Both the position numbers and the translations under genes were made by a program. Below, piece by piece: positions 3,408-57,491 of a stretch of DNA of 57,746 nucleotides. This DNA comes from Chitinispirillales bacterium (lineage in GTDB: Bacteria > Fibrobacterota > Chitinivibrionia > Chitinivibrionales > Chitinispirillaceae): assembly GCA_031254105.1 (NCBI GenBank), contig JAIRVB010000032.1, positions 1-57,746 of the forward strand, written 5' to 3'. The number at the start of each line of letters is the position of its first letter. The stretch's first letter is position 1. The notes under the pieces were generated by a model. That model was not told where the DNA came from. It searched no databases and saw only the letters and a program-made list of their open reading frames with translations.

Positions 3408-4283
3408 TCAGCTGTTAGTTTCAGCTTTTTGCCTGCCTCTCCATCTACAAACTATATAAGTCCTGAACCAGGGGAAGGTTAATAGTACAGCAAAAAACCA
3501 TAATACACCCCTGCACACCGATGTCCGGCCTTTGAGTTGAATTTCAAACTCAAGACATTCCTTCATAAACACGGGTTCCATTACAAAATCAATTCTTCGG
3601 CTGCGAAGTTCGAGTGCGCTGCGCGCGGCCGCAAAATAACCGCATAGTTTACCGAGTCTTGCCGGATTCTTAAGTCCCACCCTTACCCAAAATCTTAAAT
3701 CATCGAAAGTAATTATTTTTAAGGCGCCTGTTAAGAGCCTTTGCATCCACTTGAACGCTTTTTTTCTCCAAACCGTATCATTTATAAGCTTATAGTATTT
3801 GCTGTTTCTTATCTTCTCCCAGCGTCTTTTTAGTTTTTGAAAGAAACCGCTCTTTTTTTCAGATTCCTCTTCAAACGCAGGTTCATCAACACTTGGCGGC
3901 AACCCGTATGATTGACTTCCGGCATCTTCATCAGGATACTGCGGATGCTCCTCAAAGCCCTCATCCGCTCCCTGTTGAGTTGACATTTGCGGCAGAGTAT
4001 CCTCCGCCTCTTCTTCACCGGCCTCAAAATTTTCACCGTTCGGTTCGTCCCCTTTTTTTCGTTTCAGCTTTAAGCTAATGCAAAAAATTTTCCATGATAT
4101 GCCTTTTTTTGAGGAATAGACAAATTGGAAAACATTTTGGTGAATGTACGAAAGCCGGAATTCGGAATCAAGACGGCGTGGATTACGGCAGTTTACGTTT
4201 GCGCCAAAACGAATAGGGAGAATGATAAGTAAGATTACTAAAGAAAGCAGAGCCGAAAAGATCCAAAGAAGAATAGTCCACAT
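3408..4283 (-). CDS. DUF2953-like membrane protein
   Basis: A 291-residue protein with one strong N-terminal membrane segment (residues about 3-25, WTILLWIFSALLSLVILLII). An acidic, low-complexity linker (about 75-150) follows, then a basic C-terminal domain containing FDDLRFWVRVGLKNPARLG and a later segment with MEPVFMKECLEFEIQLKG. The layout (N-terminal helix, a domain comparing 'G..NPA..G..YG..' and a C-terminal hydrophobic stretch) resembles DUF2953 proteins of unknown function, known in Firmicutes as YtfI. The match is to pattern, not to a catalytic motif. It starts 10 bases after the stop of the 5-formyl-THF cyclo-ligase gene, so the two are probably co-transcribed. Confidence 0.55.
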   Translation of the reverse strand: MWTILLWIFSALLSLVILLIILPIRFGANVNCRNPRRLDSEFRLSYIHQNVFQFVYSSKKGISWKIFCISLKLKRKKGDEPNGENFEAGEEEAEDTLPQMSTQQGADEGFEEHPQYPDEDAGSQSYGLPPSVDEPAFEEESEKKSGFFQKLKRRWEKIRNSKYYKLINDTVWRKKAFKWMQRLLTGALKIITFDDLRFWVRVGLKNPARLGKLCGYFAAARSALELRSRRIDFVMEPVFMKECLEFEIQLKGRTSVCRGVLWFFAVLLTFPWFRTYIVCRWRGRQKAETNS

Positions 4284-4292
4284 ACGGGCCGC

Positions 4293-4952
4293 TCAATCCT
4301 GTCCTGCAAAGATGTTAATGTTTTGCGGCTGAATTGATTTCACCGTGAGTACTCCGCTTTCGGTAACCATCAGATCCATGGCCGCGTCATGGCTCTCTTT
4401 CGGTAAAGGATGATCGCTTACCTGACAATCAAAGGCGCATCCTATCAACTTCGCCCTGCCTTTTATCCCGCTCAAAAAATTATCATAAAAAGCGCGGCCT
4501 CTCCCAAGTCTGGTTCCATACATGTCAAAAGCGACTCCGGGACAGATACATACGCCTATACGTTCAACATCGATGTTGCCTTTTAATTTACTTTTTGGTT
4601 CGACAGTACCAAACGGCCCCGCTTCAATGTCTTCATTTAAATTCCAAACCTGAGCCGCGCCCATTCCTCCCGTTTCCCGGCAGTACGGAAGCGCGAGACC
4701 GCGGCCTGAGGCGAGTATCCCGCTCATCAAATCAAATGTATCCACTTCCGAACCGATGTTGCGATATGCCATGATCATATCGCAATCAGCGACAGCTGGC
4801 AGTGAAAGGATATGGGCGGTTATATCCGCGCTCTTCTTCTCGCGCATCCTTTCACCCAGGCCTTTTCTCAAGCCTGTGTAGAATGCTCTGAGCTCCCGTT
4901 TTTTTGCAATTAGTTTTGAATTTTGAATTCTGAATTCTGAATTATAAGACAT
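4293..4952 (-). CDS. 5-formyltetrahydrofolate cyclo-ligase (MTHFS)
   Basis: Converts 5-formyl-THF with ATP to 5,10-methenyl-THF in one-carbon metabolism. Family signatures are clear: KKRELRAFYTGLRKGL near the N-terminus, MAYRNIGSEVDT, the ATP/substrate motif PGVAFDMYGTRLGRGRAFYD and the C-terminal HDAAMDLMVTE. The length of 219 is normal for the family (about 180-220). The ATG at 4952 has AAGGA about 10 bases upstream and no good alternative in frame downstream. As a result the first dozen residues are encoded by an A/T-rich simple repeat (GAATTC-type words) that also litters the upstream intergenic region. This looks like repeat DNA captured as a new N-terminus. Confidence 0.88.
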   Translation of the reverse strand: MSYNSEFRIQNSKLIAKKRELRAFYTGLRKGLGERMREKKSADITAHILSLPAVADCDMIMAYRNIGSEVDTFDLMSGILASGRGLALPYCRETGGMGAAQVWNLNEDIEAGPFGTVEPKSKLKGNIDVERIGVCICPGVAFDMYGTRLGRGRAFYDNFLSGIKGRAKLIGCAFDCQVSDHPLPKESHDAAMDLMVTESGVLTVKSIQPQNINIFAGQD

Positions 4953-5182
4953 TAATTTTTGATCCTTAATTTTAAATTACAAGCCATGAAGTTTTGACCT
5001 TTGCGTCCTGAGTTCAGAATTCAAAATTTCTAATCCAAAATACGTATTATATGCTGAAAAATGCAATTTCATACTACATTTTAGAAGCATTAGTTATTTT
5101 GTTTCCACGAGTGTTTATTTCTAATTTTGATTTCCGAGTTCAGAACACAAAGAACGGAACTCATGTTTTATAATTCAAAATT
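4914..5182. repeat. GAATTC/CAAAATT word repeats between divergent genes
   Basis: Repeated short words (TTTTGAATT, CTGAATT, CAGAATTCAAAATT, ATTCAAAATT) occur at about 4914-4945, 5010-5032 and 5166-5182. They surround the start of the cyclo-ligase gene and the leader of rlmB. A related cluster is at 34337-34372. The stretch 4953-5200 holds no other gene and must carry both divergent promoters. Confidence 0.55.
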
Positions 5183-5200
5183 TACTTAAAAGAGTATAAC

Positions 5201-5968
5201 ATGAACGGTATTCAGGCAAAAGACATCCCCATTTTCGGAATCCATCCGGTAGAAGAGCTCCTCGCGCTCCGCAAACAGGATATTGAGCACGTCTATTTTG
5301 ATAAGGACAAAAAAAGTCAGGCGCTCTTTGAGCTTATACGCGCGTGCCGCAAAGAACGTCTCTCATATAATATGGTGCCGGAGATAAAGCTGAACGCTCT
5401 TACCGGAAACGCGAAACATCAGGGGGTCGCCGCGTTTTGCAGTGTGCGGCCTTATAATAATACGGATGACCTTACCAAAATTGTAGAGTTAAAACCCGCG
5501 CCGCTGTTCGTTGTGGCGGCGTCAATTGAAGACCCGGGGAATTTGGGCGCGATAATAAGGTCGTGCGTATGTCTTGGGGCTGACGCTCTTTTGCTTGAGC
5601 GTAAAAACACTGTTCCGCTTAACGCGTCGGTATCAAGAAGTTCTGCCGGAATGATCGAGCGGCTGTGTATTGTAAAGCCGCGAAATTTAGAAGGTCTTAT
5701 CGGGGAGTATGTACAAAAAGGCTTTTCAGTAGTGGGGGCTGATATGGAAAACGGTGTTGATCCAACACAAAACGATTTCACCCGTCCCACTATTCTTGTT
5801 ACCGGAGGGGAGCACCGGGGGATCCCTCCTTATTTACAAAAACTATGCGCAGGCACGATATCCATACCAATGAGTCCCAACGCTCAGTCTCTTAACGCTT
5901 CTGTGGCTGCCGCGTTGCTTTTGTATGAGTGCATGCGGCAGCGCGGCTTTCCAAACTCGTCACTTTAG
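5201..5968 (+). CDS. rlmB: TrmH-family 23S rRNA 2'-O-ribose methyltransferase
   Basis: SPOUT-class RNA methyltransferase using S-adenosylmethionine, most like RlmB, which methylates G2251 of 23S rRNA. The N-terminal substrate-binding domain starts IFGIHPVEELL and includes the KHQGVAAF motif typical of RlmB. The three SpoU motifs are all present: DPGNLGAIIRS, ILVTGGEHRGI and ISIPMSPNAQSLNASVAAAL. The length of 255 is close to the usual 245-260. Other TrmH-family members such as TsnR-like enzymes are possible, but the N-terminal domain favours RlmB. The 3' end overlaps the convergent gene at 5960 by nine bases. Confidence 0.85.
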   Translation: MNGIQAKDIPIFGIHPVEELLALRKQDIEHVYFDKDKKSQALFELIRACRKERLSYNMVPEIKLNALTGNAKHQGVAAFCSVRPYNNTDDLTKIVELKPAPLFVVAASIEDPGNLGAIIRSCVCLGADALLLERKNTVPLNASVSRSSAGMIERLCIVKPRNLEGLIGEYVQKGFSVVGADMENGVDPTQNDFTRPTILVTGGEHRGIPPYLQKLCAGTISIPMSPNAQSLNASVAAALLLYECMRQRGFPNSSL

Positions 5969-7468
5969 ATTGAAAAAATTGTCAATAGAATCCATAACAT
6001 CGTCTCCGGTGATTCCATCGTCACTCTCTATGTTTCCTGCCGCGGGCGCTGATGGCTGAGTAAACGCGGGCTGCTGAGGAGCTGCCTGAGACATAAGAGG
6101 CGCTTGGGCCGGCGGAAGCGGCGTAGGGAACGGCTGCGGCATTATGGGCGCCTGAGCCGACGGCTGGAGAGGCGGCTGCTGCATAATCGGCGGTTGTGCC
6201 TGAAACAGCGGTGGGGGAGGAGCCTGCGTCTGCGGCGGAAACTGCGGAGGCACAGGCTGCAAGTACTGTGGTCTATCCATGCAGATCGTCTCTGTGAACA
6301 CCTGGTCGTTATTTGTATCGGGCTGCACGTATTTTTGATCAACAACAAATTCTTCCTCATCAGCAATTTCCGACGCAGCGCCCGGCATCGCAGGCATATT
6401 ACTCTGAGCAGTCACCTCATTAATAGGAAAATCTCCGGTTTCCTTTTCTATCTGCTGTTCCTCAAATTGGGCGAATCCCGCTTCATATTCCTCAAAAGAC
6501 TGTTCCGCCCAGGAATCAACTTCATCAGGTTCAGACTGGGCGGCGGACTGTGCGATGGGAAGTTCAAACACCTCTTCATTATCCTGAGCCTGAGGTGCTG
6601 ATGGAGCGGAGGGTTGTGTTCCTGCCCCGGTTTCTTCAATGCGGTCAGCGGTTTTCCAGTAACCGTCAGGGTAGGGGAGCTGCTCAACAGCGGGAGTTTC
6701 AGACGCGGTTGAATAGATTGGCTGCGCTTGCGGCGCGCGAGATTCCTCAATACTCCCGAATGGTTCGTATCCGCTTGAAGCCTGTTCTGGGGAGCGTTCC
6801 TCATAATCAATAACCGGAACCTGAGGAGCGGCAGCCTGAGCCGACTGCGCTGCCGGCAAAGCTCCCAACTCTTCACGGGTTTCAAAAGATTTAAAATTTG
6901 CCTGTGGCTTTTCTTCCGCTTTTCCAAATTCAGCAGCTACGGGGGACTGCGCGGTTTCCTCAACACCGGGCCCCGGCTCCTTTTCGGGGAGGGGAACTAC
7001 TGTTTGTACCGGAGGAACATCGGGTATGACCATATTCTGAGAAACGGCTGCCCGCGCTGCCGCTGGAGCGTCCACTTCCGCTTTTTGGGCTCTGCGTTCC
7101 GGGTTTTCAAGTACTGCGATGTATTGGCTGATCTGCATATCCGCATATTTAGAGAAGAAAACATCAAGCAGATGCATGTTACTTCTGAACTGGCGGGTAA
7201 TCTCCCTGACCTTATCATTGAGGCCGCGCCTGAACATCTCCTCGCTTAAGGAGCCGCACCTGAAATTAGCGGAAATATTGTCGGCGTCGGCGATAAGCTC
7301 CCCAATAGAGAACATGATCTGCTCACGTTCATTTTTTTGCTTCTTGAGTTTCTTTTTACCGCCTAAACCGATAACAGCCCACAAAACGCAAGTTGCGATG
7401 AGCCCGGTGGCAAAACCGACTGCTAACGAGAGTATATTAACATTAAGACCCATTATGCTAATATCCAT
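5960..7468 (-). CDS. Membrane-anchored Pro/Gln/Ala-rich protein of unknown function
   Basis: I do not recognise a family. From the ATG at 7468 (preceded by AAAGGGA) the protein has 502 residues; an in-frame start at 7504 is less likely. Residues about 8-35 form one membrane helix (NILSLAVGFATGLIATCVLWAV), followed by a lysine-rich stop-transfer stretch. About 100 residues of predicted helix follow (GELIADADNISANFRCG onward). After that the protein is long, disordered and rich in Pro, Gln, Ala and Glu, with PPQ/APP runs near the C-terminus. The last segment (DDVMDSIDNFFNLK) is acidic. This looks like a scaffold or envelope-spanning tether. The gene overlaps the rlmB 3' end by nine bases on the opposite strand. 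Confidence 0.7.
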   Translation of the reverse strand: MDISIMGLNVNILSLAVGFATGLIATCVLWAVIGLGGKKKLKKQKNEREQIMFSIGELIADADNISANFRCGSLSEEMFRRGLNDKVREITRQFRSNMHLLDVFFSKYADMQISQYIAVLENPERRAQKAEVDAPAAARAAVSQNMVIPDVPPVQTVVPLPEKEPGPGVEETAQSPVAAEFGKAEEKPQANFKSFETREELGALPAAQSAQAAAPQVPVIDYEERSPEQASSGYEPFGSIEESRAPQAQPIYSTASETPAVEQLPYPDGYWKTADRIEETGAGTQPSAPSAPQAQDNEEVFELPIAQSAAQSEPDEVDSWAEQSFEEYEAGFAQFEEQQIEKETGDFPINEVTAQSNMPAMPGAASEIADEEEFVVDQKYVQPDTNNDQVFTETICMDRPQYLQPVPPQFPPQTQAPPPPLFQAQPPIMQQPPLQPSAQAPIMPQPFPTPLPPAQAPLMSQAAPQQPAFTQPSAPAAGNIESDDGITGDDVMDSIDNFFNLK

Positions 7469-52789: not shown

Positions 52790-53623
52790 CTACTCAGGTA
52801 ATAGCTTCAGATTTTTTGCGTTCAATCGGCTGATGGCCGGTTTTCCAGTTTCTTTTTCGAGTTGTTCCCGCGCCACTTTCGCTGTTTCCGCACCCTTTTT
52901 GGCTGTTTTCGCGCTTTGTTTAAACCCAACCGGATTATGCGCGATTGATATTTCCGTTGCGGCAACTTCGGCGAGCATATTTAGCACCAATTCGGTATTT
53001 GTCATATTGTCTCGCAGACTCTCTTTTTTGAGCCCTTTGTATTTTTTATACTCATTAGTGGTCATACCGCTCCACGTTTTACTCATCAAATCCGTAAGCG
53101 CGCAATATTCACCGCCCGGTTTAACACCGCTTTTGTTCCATTCATCTGTTAGAGCTTTACGAACTTCAATAGACTTTATACGCTGATTTATCCAATTTTC
53201 GCTGTAACCTAAACGGCGGTAATTTTGTATAGCGCGGTCGATAGACAGCTCCGGGTCAACTATTTCATCAATACGCTCACGGCCGACTTGGGCAAGCCAC
53301 ATTTTGAACGGTTCGGCTTTTTTACTGGGTATAGACTGGATAAGACGCAGGATTTGTTCGGTGTCAGCAACATCGGTCAAATACATTTTCCCATCAGCAG
53401 CTTGCATTTTCAGTTGGTTAGTATCGCTAACCAACTGGCTGCCTTCATCTTTCAACTTATTTTTAAGCCATTTCCAATAATTTCTTACTTTTTGATAATC
53501 CTGTTGGTCGGTTAAAATACCAACGACATCTAAAATCGAAAACCACCACTTCTGCGCACTCTCGTCCCACTCGGCGCGAACTTGCTTCCGCTCGAAAAGT
53601 TTGATCCCGTTTTTTGCGGCCAT
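52790..53623 (-). CDS. Bro-N domain protein (phage antirepressor-like), copy 2
   Basis: A 277-residue paralogue of the gene at 51352. Residues about 80-160 (LTDVADTEQILRLIQS through NQRIKSIEVRKALTDEW) are almost identical in protein and DNA. Residues 30-75 differ strongly (LTDQQDYQKVRNYWKW here) and the C-terminal tail differs moderately (SIAHNPVGFKQSAKTAKKG). The start ATG follows the same GAGAGG leader. The pattern suggests either recent duplication with divergence of the ends or gene conversion of the middle. Confidence 0.82.
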   Translation of the reverse strand: MAAKNGIKLFERKQVRAEWDESAQKWWFSILDVVGILTDQQDYQKVRNYWKWLKNKLKDEGSQLVSDTNQLKMQAADGKMYLTDVADTEQILRLIQSIPSKKAEPFKMWLAQVGRERIDEIVDPELSIDRAIQNYRRLGYSENWINQRIKSIEVRKALTDEWNKSGVKPGGEYCALTDLMSKTWSGMTTNEYKKYKGLKKESLRDNMTNTELVLNMLAEVAATEISIAHNPVGFKQSAKTAKKGAETAKVAREQLEKETGKPAISRLNAKNLKLLPE

Positions 53624-53812: not shown

Positions 53813-54230
53813 AAAACTATTTATGGATGAATTTGATTATAGCCTGAATGGGGTGAAAAGCGGTTAATGTTATTGATTGGTTTAAAATTTCCATCTTTCT
53901 CCTGTGTCGTTTTTTGTGAACAGGTTTACTGTGTAACATGCGCATTTTGTATTATTGGTTTTAATATATGCAGTATAAATATGTAAAATAAGTATATGTT
54001 TAAATTAGAGCTTTTTGTGAAAATTTGGCGTTTTGGCGATTTTTTATTATATTTGGAAAAATGTATAGATATGGAGATATTGCGTATATTAAGACGTTAG
54101 CCGTAATTTTAAAAGGCAAGACAAAAACATTTATACAACTTGATATTTCAATATTTCTTCGATATTACATTGTAATTATTTATTTTATTAAACGATGAAA
54201 TAAGTTTCACCACGAAGTTCCATTCTCAAA

Positions 54231-54527
54231 TTGCGGCAGGAAACTAAATGCAATTTCAATCTGAAAGCGGAGCTGAATGAGGTTTTTGCGTATTGTGTTT
54301 TGTGTACTTTTTATTCGTTAGATGAAAGCGATAAGCATGAAGCTGAGAACATTATTCATAAAACAGATTTTAATAATGTGAGAAGTGAAAATCCGCGTGT
54401 AGCTAAAGTTCTTGAGTATTATACTAATTACAGAGATGGTATTATAACTCCGGGAACAGAGTTATATAAACTAAAGCAGGAATATAATTCATTGAATAAA
54501 AAGAAAGATAATTTAAGAGATAAATAA
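54231..54527 (+). CDS. Small protein upstream of the DUF1016 gene
   Basis: A 98-residue acidic/helical protein, no family recognised. Visible features are AYCVLCTFYSLDESDKHEAE near the middle and a Lys/Asn-rich C-terminus (KQEYNSLNKKKDN). The listed start is a TTG; a downstream start is possible. Its TAA is separated by one base from the ATG of the DUF1016 gene, so the two are translationally coupled. That coupling is the main evidence that it is real. Confidence 0.5.
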   Translation: MRQETKCNFNLKAELNEVFAYCVLCTFYSLDESDKHEAENIIHKTDFNNVRSENPRVAKVLEYYTNYRDGIITPGTELYKLKQEYNSLNKKKDNLRDK

Positions 54528-54528
54528 C

Positions 54529-55641
54529 ATGCCCAAAAAACTCCAAAAAGCAAACAAGAAAAGTAGCAAAAAATTACTGATTTTGATTGACGAAACCAAG
54601 ATGTTCTCACGTATCGTTGAGATTATCGAAAACCGCAAACGCAGAGCGATGAGCAGAGCTAACTGCGAGGTGGTGTTTATGTATTGGGAGATAGGGCGTT
54701 ATATTAACTCAGCGTTGTCTGATTCTAAAGAGGCAGCAAATGGCAAACATATTATTGCGACACTGTCGCAACAATTGGTCGCCAAATATGGAAACAGTTT
54801 TGAATACACAAAATTGACTCGTATGTTAAAATTTGCTGAACTTTTTACTGATGCTGATGAACTTGCGACACTGTCGCAAGATTTGAGTTGGTCGCATTTT
54901 ATAGAGCTATTACCCTTAAAATCCGATGAAACGCGACGATATTACGCACAAGAGGCGGCAACAAGACACTTGGGGATAAGAGAGCTTCGCCGTCAAATAG
55001 CCCGAAAAGCATACGAACGGCGTGAAATTGCAAATTCGCAGCTAACGGAAACTTCAAATGTACCGTTCAATATGTTTAAAGACCCGTATATATTAGACGC
55101 TTTGGGTTTAAAAGATAACTATCTTGAAGCTGATTTAGAAAAAGCTCTCCTTACAGAGCTTGAGGCGTTTATTATAGAAGTTGGTCACGGGTTTACTTTT
55201 GCAGAACGTCAAAAACGAATGACAATGGGAGATGACGACTATACTCTTGATCTTTTGTTCTATCACCGTATTTTAAAGCGTTTAGTTGCTGTGGAGTTAA
55301 AGGTCGGTAGATTTAAACCGGAATATATGGGGCAAATGCGTTTTTATTTGAAGTGGTTAAATCGCTACGAGCGTAAAGATGGAGAAAACGCGCCTATTGG
55401 TTTGATTCTTTGTACGGAAGCCAAGCGCAGTCAGATAGAGCTTATGGAGCTTGACAAAGATGGTATTGCTGTCGCTCAGTACTGGACGGAATTACCGCCC
55501 AAAAAAGTGTTTGAGAAAAAGATAAGTGAAATTCTGAATGAAACGCGTGAACGTCTTGAACGACGTAAGTTTCTTGGTACAGGTGTAGTTCATAAGAAAA
55601 TAGATTATTTTTATGAATCGAAAGACGATGATATTGATTAA
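54529..55641 (+). CDS. DUF1016 (YhcG-type) PDDEXK nuclease-domain protein
   Basis: A 370-residue protein. The N-terminal DUF1016_N domain (about 25-170) contains EVVFMYWEIGRYIN, LSQQLVAKYG and LSWSHFIELLPLK. The C-terminal half is a PDDEXK nuclease fold: LLTELEAFIIEVGHGFTFAE, then the catalytic strand pair DYTLDLLFYHRILKRLVAVELKV cut short in the form DLLFYH...AVELK. The Asp and the ExK are both present, followed by FKPEYMGQMRFYLKWL and PIGLILC. Members of this family are often found on mobile DNA and next to restriction genes, and their role is unsettled. An attC-like site lies 87 bases downstream, so this could be a cassette gene. Confidence 0.85.
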   Translation: MPKKLQKANKKSSKKLLILIDETKMFSRIVEIIENRKRRAMSRANCEVVFMYWEIGRYINSALSDSKEAANGKHIIATLSQQLVAKYGNSFEYTKLTRMLKFAELFTDADELATLSQDLSWSHFIELLPLKSDETRRYYAQEAATRHLGIRELRRQIARKAYERREIANSQLTETSNVPFNMFKDPYILDALGLKDNYLEADLEKALLTELEAFIIEVGHGFTFAERQKRMTMGDDDYTLDLLFYHRILKRLVAVELKVGRFKPEYMGQMRFYLKWLNRYERKDGENAPIGLILCTEAKRSQIELMELDKDGIAVAQYWTELPPKKVFEKKISEILNETRERLERRKFLGTGVVHKKIDYFYESKDDDID

Positions 55642-55727
55642 TCTTAATGATTTAGTAACACAATATTTTTTCAGTATAGATATGATAAATATTCTAATGA
55701 CAGAAGATAAAAACGGAGAAAAACTAC

Positions 55728-55845
55728 GGCTAACAGAGCAGCTTGGCGTTAGTGGCAAAATCTTTCGCTCAAACTTTAGTGCAACTTGTATATTTATCTC
55801 ACATGTAAATTGTGACCACCAACGCCAAGCTGCCAAACGTTAGGC
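55728..55845 (+). other. attC-like integron recombination site
   Basis: 118 bases. The left end is GGCTAAC (six of seven to RYYYAAC), the right end GTTAGGC (perfect GTTRRRY). Inner arms GCAGCTTGGCGTTAGTGG (55738-55755) and CCACCAACGCCAAGCTGC (55816-55833) pair at 17 of 18 positions. Spacers between inner and outer arms are unequal (about 3 and 5 bases), giving the unpaired bases expected of attC. It follows the DUF1016 gene in the orientation expected of a gene cassette. Confidence 0.65.
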
Positions 55846-55891
55846 GTCAGCGGGGCGACAGTGCAATTGGAAAAATTAAGTTTTAGAAAAT

Positions 55892-56362
55892 ATGGCAACA
55901 GAAATTAAAACATGGGAAATTATTAATGGAGAGTTGAATGAAGTAAATTCATCTCTCGCTGAAAATAATCGGAAAGAAAGAGAGGATTTAGAAAAGTGGA
56001 TTAAGACAAATTCTAAAATATTAGGAGATGATATTTTGGTTTTTGGTGAGCAAGTGTGGACAAAATCTGGACCGCTCGACTATATCGGAATTGACAACAC
56101 AGGAAATATTGTTATTGTTGAACTCAAAAGAGACAAATTAGCAAGAGATGTTTTAGCCCAAGCAGGATATTTTATTGCATTAATTTCAAATAAATTGGGA
56201 CAAGCAAAAAAAGATTTTTTACGTCAAGTTATACATTACGAATATCCGAGATTTTATTGGGAAAAAGATAATTTTAGTATAAGAACCGAATATAAAGAAT
56301 TAGTGAAGGAAATTATTGAAGAAAAGGAAGAAATGCCGAACGCCAAGCCGCTGGGACGTTAG
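55892..56362 (+). CDS. NucS/DUF91-like PDDEXK nuclease-domain protein
   Basis: A 156-residue protein. The core resembles the nuclease domain of NucS-type proteins: REDLEKWIKTNSKILGDDI, then GPLDYIGIDNTGNIVIVELK with the Asp and ExK catalytic pattern, then RDVLAQAGYFIALIS. The N-terminal DNA-binding domain of NucS is absent, so this is a stand-alone nuclease domain. The last residues (PNAKPLGR) are encoded by the right half of an attC-like site (56339-56366), so the original C-terminus has probably been lost and replaced by read-through. It lies between two attC-like sites, as a cassette would. Confidence 0.75.
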   Translation: MATEIKTWEIINGELNEVNSSLAENNRKEREDLEKWIKTNSKILGDDILVFGEQVWTKSGPLDYIGIDNTGNIVIVELKRDKLARDVLAQAGYFIALISNKLGQAKKDFLRQVIHYEYPRFYWEKDNFSIRTEYKELVKEIIEEKEEMPNAKPLGR

Positions 56363-56366
56363 CGGC
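56339..56366 (+). other. Right half of an attC-like site
   Basis: AACGCCAAGCCGC then GGGACGTTAGCGGC aligns with the right half of the site at 55821-55845 (AACGCCAAGCTGC, then AACGTTAGGC). The corresponding left half is not found upstream within the nuclease gene. AGCCGCT/AGCGGCT also forms a 7-bp local stem. Confidence 0.5.
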
Positions 56367-56438
56367 TATTCGGGACGGCGCAGTAATTAAAAGACAATGT
56401 AATGGATAAGTAGATTTTTAATAGCTTAATAGCTTAAT

Positions 56439-57491
56439 TTACCGAACCGGCTTCAACTTAAACTTAGATTCCTTTTTCTTCTTAACTACAGGCTCCTCTT
56501 CCTTCACCCCTGCGTAAAACCTCAATTTATTCCTGACAATCCTCCCCGAACGTGTCAGATCATCATGTTTCCATCCTCCGTAATAACGGGCTCCGGGAAC
56601 TAACGCCGAGGCGGTTTCCGCTTTGTCGGCTATCGACCAGTTGCACCAGCTTAATTTATGCTCATCCATAAATGTAAACCACCGTTCGGTTTCTAAACTG
56701 TCAAGAAACCCGTTTCCGGAGGCAAGGCATGTACCCCATTCCGAAACAAAAAGAGGAATTCCCTTGTCAAGAGCATACTGCGCCTTATCGCGGATATCGC
56801 CCTTGTGGCTTGCCGCGTAAAAGTGCAGTGAATAAACAAGATTATGACCATCAAGAGGATCATCGGCAGCTTCATTTACATTTTGACACCAGAAGGGGGT
56901 ACCCAAAATAATGAGATTGTCGGGGTCAACAGCGCGAATCGCGCTTACTATTTTTTCCGAATACGGCTTTACCGTCTCAGACCACGAAACCCTTTCCGGC
57001 TCGTTGAAAATTTCGTAGATTATGTTAGGATAATGTCCGTATGTACGCGCCATCTCCTCAAAAAATTTTTGCGCCGCAGCCGTATTTGAACTCTCATATG
57101 CGTGGTGATCATGCCAGTCGATTATCACATAAATGCCCTTTTTTATCGCGGCGTCAACGACTGTTTTAACTTTTTTCTTTTCTGATCCGTCAAACATGTA
57201 TCCGGTTTTAGTCTCGTTGTGCTTAACCCCCATGGCTGCGCGTACGATAGTGACTTTCCAATCATCCGCGAGCCAGTCTACAGCCCGCTTATTGTAGAAT
57301 TGTTCCATCCACTGACTCCAGAAAAAGCTCATTCCGCGAAGCTGCACAGGATCACCGTTTTTGTCAACAATTTTATTTCCCTCAACCCGCAGAGCTCCGT
57401 GTTTTTCCACAGGGGTGAGCTCGCGGGCAGCAGCGTTTGTTATTGTAATTACCGAAAAAAGCGTGATGAAATAAAGGTGTCTTAAACGCAT
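56439..57491 (-). CDS. GH5 endo-1,4-beta-glucanase (cellulase)
   Basis: A 350-residue secreted glycoside hydrolase of family 5, probably subfamily 2. The ATG has GAGGAAC upstream; a signal peptide (YFITLFSVITITNAAA) follows. The family pattern is clear: HGALRVEGNKIVDKNGDPV, LRGMSFFWSQW, VRAAMGV, VIIDWHDHHA, the acid/base Glu in YEIFNEPERV, the HFYA region and the nucleophile Glu in LFVSEWGTC. The last 20 residues are Lys/Val-rich and lack a sorting domain or dockerin. It should cleave internal beta-1,4 links in cellulose or related glucans, matching a fibre-degrading lifestyle. Confidence 0.92.
   Translation of the reverse strand: MRLRHLYFITLFSVITITNAAARELTPVEKHGALRVEGNKIVDKNGDPVQLRGMSFFWSQWMEQFYNKRAVDWLADDWKVTIVRAAMGVKHNETKTGYMFDGSEKKKVKTVVDAAIKKGIYVIIDWHDHHAYESSNTAAAQKFFEEMARTYGHYPNIIYEIFNEPERVSWSETVKPYSEKIVSAIRAVDPDNLIILGTPFWCQNVNEAADDPLDGHNLVYSLHFYAASHKGDIRDKAQYALDKGIPLFVSEWGTCLASGNGFLDSLETERWFTFMDEHKLSWCNWSIADKAETASALVPGARYYGGWKHDDLTRSGRIVRNKLRFYAGVKEEEPVVKKKKESKFKLKPVR

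Follow-up and report, generated by a model that had tools for sequence, protein, structure and literature searches.

Two nuclease genes lie in succession near one end of a 57,746-nucleotide contig from a Chitinispirillales bacterium (the whole contig is called the window below), and a preliminary description of this DNA had assigned them to cassette positions beside attC-like sites in a cluster lacking an integrase. The question raised by this locus is whether the two genes were installed by an integron and, if so, by an integron of which kind. The reading that we regard as very likely is that positions 53929-56430 are the remnant of a small integron, which was acquired horizontally from Bacteroidota by a probable Fibrobacterota cell and has lost its integrase. 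The head of the array and its first cassette comprise the following features:

53929-54096, forward strand: attI-like leader, an integration platform without its integrase, delimited by alignment with its counterparts on C23, C54 and C5, three other contigs of this genome
53939-53992, forward strand: inverted-repeat element in the leader, TGCGCATTTTGTA ... TATGTAAAATAAG, with a degenerate right arm
54048-54055, forward strand: candidate cassette promoter box, TATATTTG, conserved in the C23 and C54 leaders
54077-54098, forward strand: attI core, ATATTGCGTATATTAAGACGTT, with the crossover between G54096 and T54097
54097-55839, forward strand: cassette 1, defined by complementarity of its start to its end
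54529-55641, forward strand: cassette 1 gene, a YhcG/DUF1016 PDDEXK nuclease (PF06250, 2.5e-45; PF17761, 1.1e-36)
55728-55845, forward strand: attC of cassette 1 (R'' 55728-55734, L'' 55738-55755, L' 55816-55833, R' 55839-55845)

The leader, approximately 170 nucleotides in length, is common to the window and contigs C23, C54 and C5 (alignment scores of 149-157 against shuffle maxima of 65-74). The same elements accompany intact integrases in Bacteroidota, and a search for the leader in 100 relatives yielded only chance-level matches outside this genome. The inverted repeat, which is better conserved in C23, C54, C5 and many Bacteroidota integrase loci, is a possible binding site for an integrase or a repressor. 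The consensus of the Bacteroidota -7 promoter box is TAnnTTTG, which we take TATATTTG to resemble, and this box is a candidate promoter of the cassette genes. A pattern search of the genome located the attI core at four leaders, with no matches in the genome to the reversed control pattern; the shared leader ends in TTATTGCGTATATTAAGGAGTT, and the cassettes begin directly after its GTT. The core reads GACGTT, not GAGTT, which was counted against an integron reading. As previously described, no integrase gene is present in the window, but the presence of the leader means that the locus is not the bare attC cluster that had been supposed. A BRO-N domain gene occupies positions 52790-53623 on the opposite strand, just upstream of the leader, at the place where the integrase would be expected.

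The first ten bases of cassette 1, GTTAGCCGTA (54096-54105), are the exact reverse complement (10/10) of TACGGCTAAC (55725-55734), which consists of R'' of the cassette and the three bases preceding it. This complementarity, which delimits the cassette to 54097-55839, is what insertion from a circle at G^TT must leave behind and thus marks capture of a circular cassette at attI. The gene carried by the cassette belongs to the PADLOC defence-candidate family PDC-S02 (1.6e-115) and is followed by the 118-nucleotide site reported earlier. The outer cores of this site are R'' GGCTAAC and R' GTTAGGC, and recomputation of the 18-nucleotide inner arms (55738-55755 and 55816-55833) again gave 17 complementary positions and one mismatch. 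Folded as single-stranded DNA, its bottom strand reaches -25 kcal/mol (z -4.52), a value equalled by none of 200 dinucleotide shuffles. A covariance model (R2), which was trained on 33 Bacteroidota sites, none of them from this genome, matched exactly 55728-55845 (45.3 bits, E 7e-8 in 128 kb) and gave no second match in the 57.7-kb window. A simple attC pattern scan of the window likewise returned this interval as the only convincing candidate, and an Rfam scan of the array region returned no match. Neither a lack of secondary structure nor membership of the arms in another repeat family, the two findings named beforehand as contrary to an attC identity, was encountered. A CGACACTGTCG repeat within the DUF1016 gene (54742-54893) was tried as an attC and rejected as chance or another repeat. 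The window contains only one complete attC site, which weighs against the integron reading; beyond it, the array continues as follows:

55840-56358, forward strand: cassette 2, bounded by the crossovers in R' of the first attC and in R' of the half-site
55892-56362, forward strand: cassette 2 gene, a NucS_C-like nuclease (NucS PRK04247, 1.5e-9; PDC-S11, 6e-19)
56335-56364, forward strand: half attC, a deletion derivative in which R''-like GCCGAAC is fused to L' GCCAAGCCGC and R' GTTAGCG
56359-56430, forward strand: leftover start of a third cassette, gene-less, recognized by its resemblance to the beginnings of other cassettes (GGGACGGCGCAGTAATT vs GGGGCGACAGTGCAATT)

The sequence AACGCCAAGCCGCTGGGACGTTAG at 56339-56362 has its counterpart in the right-hand, L'-R' portion of complete sites found on other contigs of this genome, which upholds the earlier claim that the second gene ends in a homologous half-site; given this match, a deletion between short ACG repeats would be the simplest origin. 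The R''-like element agrees at six of seven positions with the GCCTAAC expected for cassette 2, the left arm is missing and the strand does not fold (z -0.92). The final codons of the cassette 2 reading frame run through the half-site, within which the stop codon lies, and the PDC-S11 match covers only positions 1-87 of the 358-position profile; the nuclease gene is therefore probably truncated. Host sequence returns at 56439 with a GH5 cellulase gene on the opposite strand. The placement of both nuclease genes in cassette positions is borne out by these boundaries, and the G+C content of the array, 35.0% vs 45.1% in the rest of the window, suggests a foreign composition. At the contig end (57690-57746) there is an extremely G+C-rich stretch, reaching 74% over the last 147 bases, which is possibly an assembly artefact.

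The window (contig C29) is not the only locus of this kind in the genome, which comprises 3.68 Mb in 56 contigs, and nuclease or restriction genes are found at all of C29, C54, C23, C15 and C5. A match between a cassette end and its own start is also seen on C54 (GTTGTATGC / GCATACAAC) and on C23 (GTTGCAGGCA / TGCCTGCAAC), a cytosine methylase/HNH restriction pair belongs to the array on C5, and two attC sites with no leader fall within a type I restriction gene, hsdM, on C15. On C15 (L019 8300-11830), hsdM is split by a PLD-type nuclease gene and a Sel1-repeat gene together with the two attC sites. The cassette genes at these loci include members of PDC-S02 and PDC-S11, a type IIG enzyme, and PLD and PDDEXK nucleases; this family membership, including the PADLOC candidate sets, suggests a role in defence. 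The search for an integrase elsewhere in the genome, which had been proposed as a check, recovered fragments only, all of one family: an N-terminal fragment of 202 amino acids on C23 (residues 79-243, with the catalytic end missing), a frameshifted remnant on C22 (residues 78-202) and a C-terminal scrap on C5 (residues 323-344). No fragment was found beside the window leader or on C54, and the genome contains neither an intact integrase of this family nor a canonical IntI. Because the integrase is absent from the window and survives in the genome only as broken fragments, the array is an integron remnant and not an integron. The start of C22 (L047 1-127) and the end of C23 (L018 12064-12190) share the same sequence of ~127 bp, which adjoins both broken integrases and is a repeat that broke the assembly.

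It is conceivable, and in our estimate unlikely, that the array is dormant rather than dead, its leaders and cassettes still being open to mobilization in trans by an integrase supplied from another cell or from a plasmid since lost. The leaders on C29, C54 and C5 each precede a cassette in the absence of an intact integrase, and cassette 1 retains a complete attC and a perfect match to its own start, as this explanation would predict; set against this are the deletion of the second attC in the window, the frameshift in the cassette gene on C23 and the lack of an intact integrase in the genome.

The provenance of the remnant is indicated by the relatives of its broken integrases. In a scan of 84,980 species, the closest relatives, mostly at 55-72% identity, were almost all Bacteroidota, with few exceptions (Treponema, Limnohabitans); judging by their isolate names, the first-ranked relatives appear to be MAGs resembling termite-gut sets. 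In these Bacteroidota the integrase is intact, a tyrosine recombinase of ~355-370 amino acids, and is accompanied by attI and cassette arrays. Of 80 relative loci, 58 carry the attI motif, which turned up a single time when the same loci were shuffled, and R2 gave 104 matches at E <= 0.01 in roughly 43 of the loci, a few of these matches being the reverse strand of a true site. In consecutive cassettes, R'' of the cassette matches the complement of the start of the same cassette at all four variable positions in 44 of 52 cases (mean 3.62 of 4; shuffled 1.56, maximum 2.12 in 2000), as compared with a mean of 1.58 of 4 between R'' and R' of the same integrated site; the sites were taken from the covariance model, in which AAC is favoured, and hence only four variable positions were scored. 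The attC stem shows compensatory changes at 16 of 21 pairs, with a covariation score of 0.577 vs 0.156 for shuffled alignments that collapses upon a one-base slide, and 93% of its cells are paired, although pairing is overstated for the inner ~14 pairs, since sites had been chosen for complementary arms; columns 24-29, which lie largely outside the selection criterion, show the same signal. Both arms have the same length in 31 of the 33 sites, even with a finder that tolerated one extrahelical base, and thus these attC sites have no extrahelical base. A mismatch, A.C on the top and T.G on the bottom strand, is near-invariant (33 of 35 sites) and also occurs in the 55728-55845 site; the bottom strand is the more stable one in 25 of 35 sites. 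A longer attC subtype of about 187-200 nucleotides is present in many Bacteroidota arrays (L096, L097, L071, L083, L087), and another genome of the host phylum (G069, contig C43; L147/L153/L156) carries an array of the same attC type scoring up to 89 bits.

The integrase of these arrays differs from IntI in a defined respect. The spacing between the catalytic Lys and HxxR is 65-66 residues in 24 of 24 Bacteroidota-type integrases, in contrast to 107 in all nine measurable canonical IntI proteins, and it is 65-72 in Xer-like enzymes. Alignment to IntI1 leaves ~42 residues of the I2 region missing, and the structure of VchIntIA/IntI4 (PDB 2a3v) aligns in two pieces that are split at the same gap; the family, in all 24 members tested, thus lacks the IntI-specific I2 domain around patch III. 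In addition, the Bacteroidota-type and canonical IntI enzymes form separate clades with 100/100 support. Likeness to IntI is nevertheless retained: an AlphaFold model of the integrase (pLDDT 83, pTM 0.50) has 2a3v as its best structural match (E 1.2e-15), the C-terminal VxSPLDxL tail is common to both, and the score against TIGR02249 is about 190 bits, below the cut-off of 265. The Bacteroidota-type enzymes further differ from IntI in an extra N-terminal domain resembling DUF5710 (E 2e-4 in one member), for which a role in the handling of single-stranded DNA is possible. This domain (L051 9770-10000, residues 1-78) is present in most intact integrases of the family, and the fragments in this genome start after it. 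With Xer recombinases (XerC/D, XerA) they share the absence of the I2 insertion and a similar catalytic domain, and NF040815, the NCBI model for XerA/'integron integrase', is their top or second match; unlike Xer, they are tied to attI and cassette arrays, not to dif, and form a clade of their own.

In canonical integrons, the I2 domain accommodates the extrahelical bases of attC (PMC4792948), which steer the choice of strand (PMC8946536), and in the Bacteroidota-type lineage the domain and the bases are missing together. An insertion that is not fully conserved has already been noted for an 'integron-like' recombinase subgroup (PMC8138268). A literature search, with subscription papers and bioRxiv outside its scope, found no description of such enzymes with attI and cassette arrays, and priority is uncertain. 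The arrays resemble those of sedentary chromosomal integrons and CALINs in their R''/L''/L'/R' boxes, unidirectional cassettes, attI at the head, crossover at G^TT, often divergent intI and frequent lack of an integrase (IntegronFinder 2.0, PMC9024848), and differ in an integrase without the IntI-specific domain and in bulge-free attC sites of a near-constant 128-134 nucleotides. The description of the window sites as attC-like therefore holds for their anatomy and not for their type, which is that of the Bacteroidota lineage rather than of canonical IntI.

The same comparison bears on the possibility that the window harbours a canonical CALIN, i.e. ordinary IntI attC sites whose cognate, I2-bearing integrase resides elsewhere in the genome or in relatives. 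Canonical IntI proteins above the curated cut-off are indeed encoded by 11 of the 101 genomes examined from the phylum (L167-L176, L179, L180, L036), and both integron types thus coexist there. However, no canonical IntI is encoded in this genome, its leader and broken integrases are those of the Bacteroidota lineage, and the attC model of that lineage gave no match at eight canonical IntI loci of the phylum or at an IntI1 plasmid locus; we consider this explanation very improbable. Still less credible is a family of dispersed hairpins, either REP-like repeats or Xer/CTX-like attachment sites, flanking accessory genes by chance: the bulge-free arms are indeed duplex-like, as reported for the CTX phage site (PMC4792948), but the complementarity of cassettes to their own starts, the fixed polarity, the arrays beside one integrase family and the attI at the head would all be unexpected.

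Import from Bacteroidota followed by decay is therefore put forward as the best reading of the array, and some of the array loci may have moved by other means. The host of the window does not belong to Bacteroidota: the best match of the integrase in 40 relatives reaches 39%, and TIGR02147, a Fibrobacter-type family, was detected in 51 of 61 relatives but not in any of the 14 controls, which suggests Fibrobacterota. In the intact ancestor, the integrase gene would have been divergent from the attI site, and circular cassettes would have been captured when the bottom strand of attC folded into a hairpin and was exchanged with attI at G^TT. After capture of the two nuclease cassettes, loss of the integrase and the deletion in the second attC would have frozen the array. 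Expression of its nuclease genes presumably starts at the leader promoter, and their products presumably act as stand-alone defence nucleases. The anatomy of the sites, the limits of the cassettes, the homology of the leaders, the integrase fragments elsewhere in the genome and the intact relatives are observed; for the window array, recombination between a bottom-strand attC hairpin and attI, the promoter and defence functions and the direction of transfer are what we infer. The array does not qualify as a canonical IntI integron, since the domain that defines that integrase was tested for and is absent from the family; by its anatomy, it would work, or have worked, like an integron.

A plasmid search with the integrase extended the family to a known resistance context. 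In published accounts, a xerD gene constantly neighbours tet(X) and is left unexplained (PMC7473080, PMC8635130). The truncated 'xerD' beside tet(X3) in Acinetobacter was recovered at 47.8% identity and is a truncated member of the Bacteroidota-type integrase family. In that setting, tet(X3) is preceded by GTTATGTGCC, which corresponds to a cassette start, and followed by the left half of a Bacteroidota-type attC (score 40, shuffle maximum 17). In an Empedobacter brevis plasmid, tet(X) is enclosed by a pair of complete attC sites (81.4 bits, E 4e-17 and 54.2 bits, E 7e-11). The two loci are as follows:

Acinetobacter indicus plasmid NZ_CP094260 (L165), 4034-6090: tet(X3) with a cassette start, half a downstream attC and the adjoining truncated 'xerD'
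Empedobacter brevis plasmid NZ_CP043635 (L166), 512-704 and 1901-2033: complete attC sites flanking tet(X)

As an exception, R'' of the tet(X) cassette fits its own start poorly (GGCTACTAAC vs GGCACATAAC); the next cassette after tet(X) shows the own-start match. The xerD-tet(X3)-res-ISCR2 arrangement of Acinetobacter plasmids (PMC8635130, PMC7473080) thus shares with the arrays described here the integrase family and the attC family bounding tet(X), and differs in that it is now moved by ISCR2/IS26 and that its attC is truncated. A possible answer to the question of why 'xerD' adjoins tet(X) (PMC7473080) is that 'xerD' is the integrase and tet(X) its cassette.

Taken beyond this locus, the data make it likely that there is a second, widespread integron lineage centred on Bacteroidota, which operates with I2-less tyrosine recombinases and attC hairpins without extrahelical bases and which was the platform that mobilized tet(X), the adjoining 'xerD' being its integrase. 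This lineage may represent an ancestral or an independent solution to hairpin recombination, in which strand choice is possibly provided by the DUF5710-like domain or the T.G wobble. Co-evolution of the I2 domain with the extrahelical attC bases poses a chicken-and-egg problem, according to Escudero et al. (PMC4792948), as to how either could be selected alone; a lineage that lacks both, yet follows the cassette rule in its arrays, may be the intermediate that has been missing, and the question becomes testable. Since standard integron detection requires the IntI-specific domain (PMC9024848, PMC9668308), I2-less integrons would be under-reported in Bacteroidota, which, according to a domain-based search, hold almost no complete integrons, with one in Salinibacter (PMC9024848). 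For the organism itself, the window would mean that a Fibrobacterota-type genome received nuclease and restriction genes in the form of cassettes.
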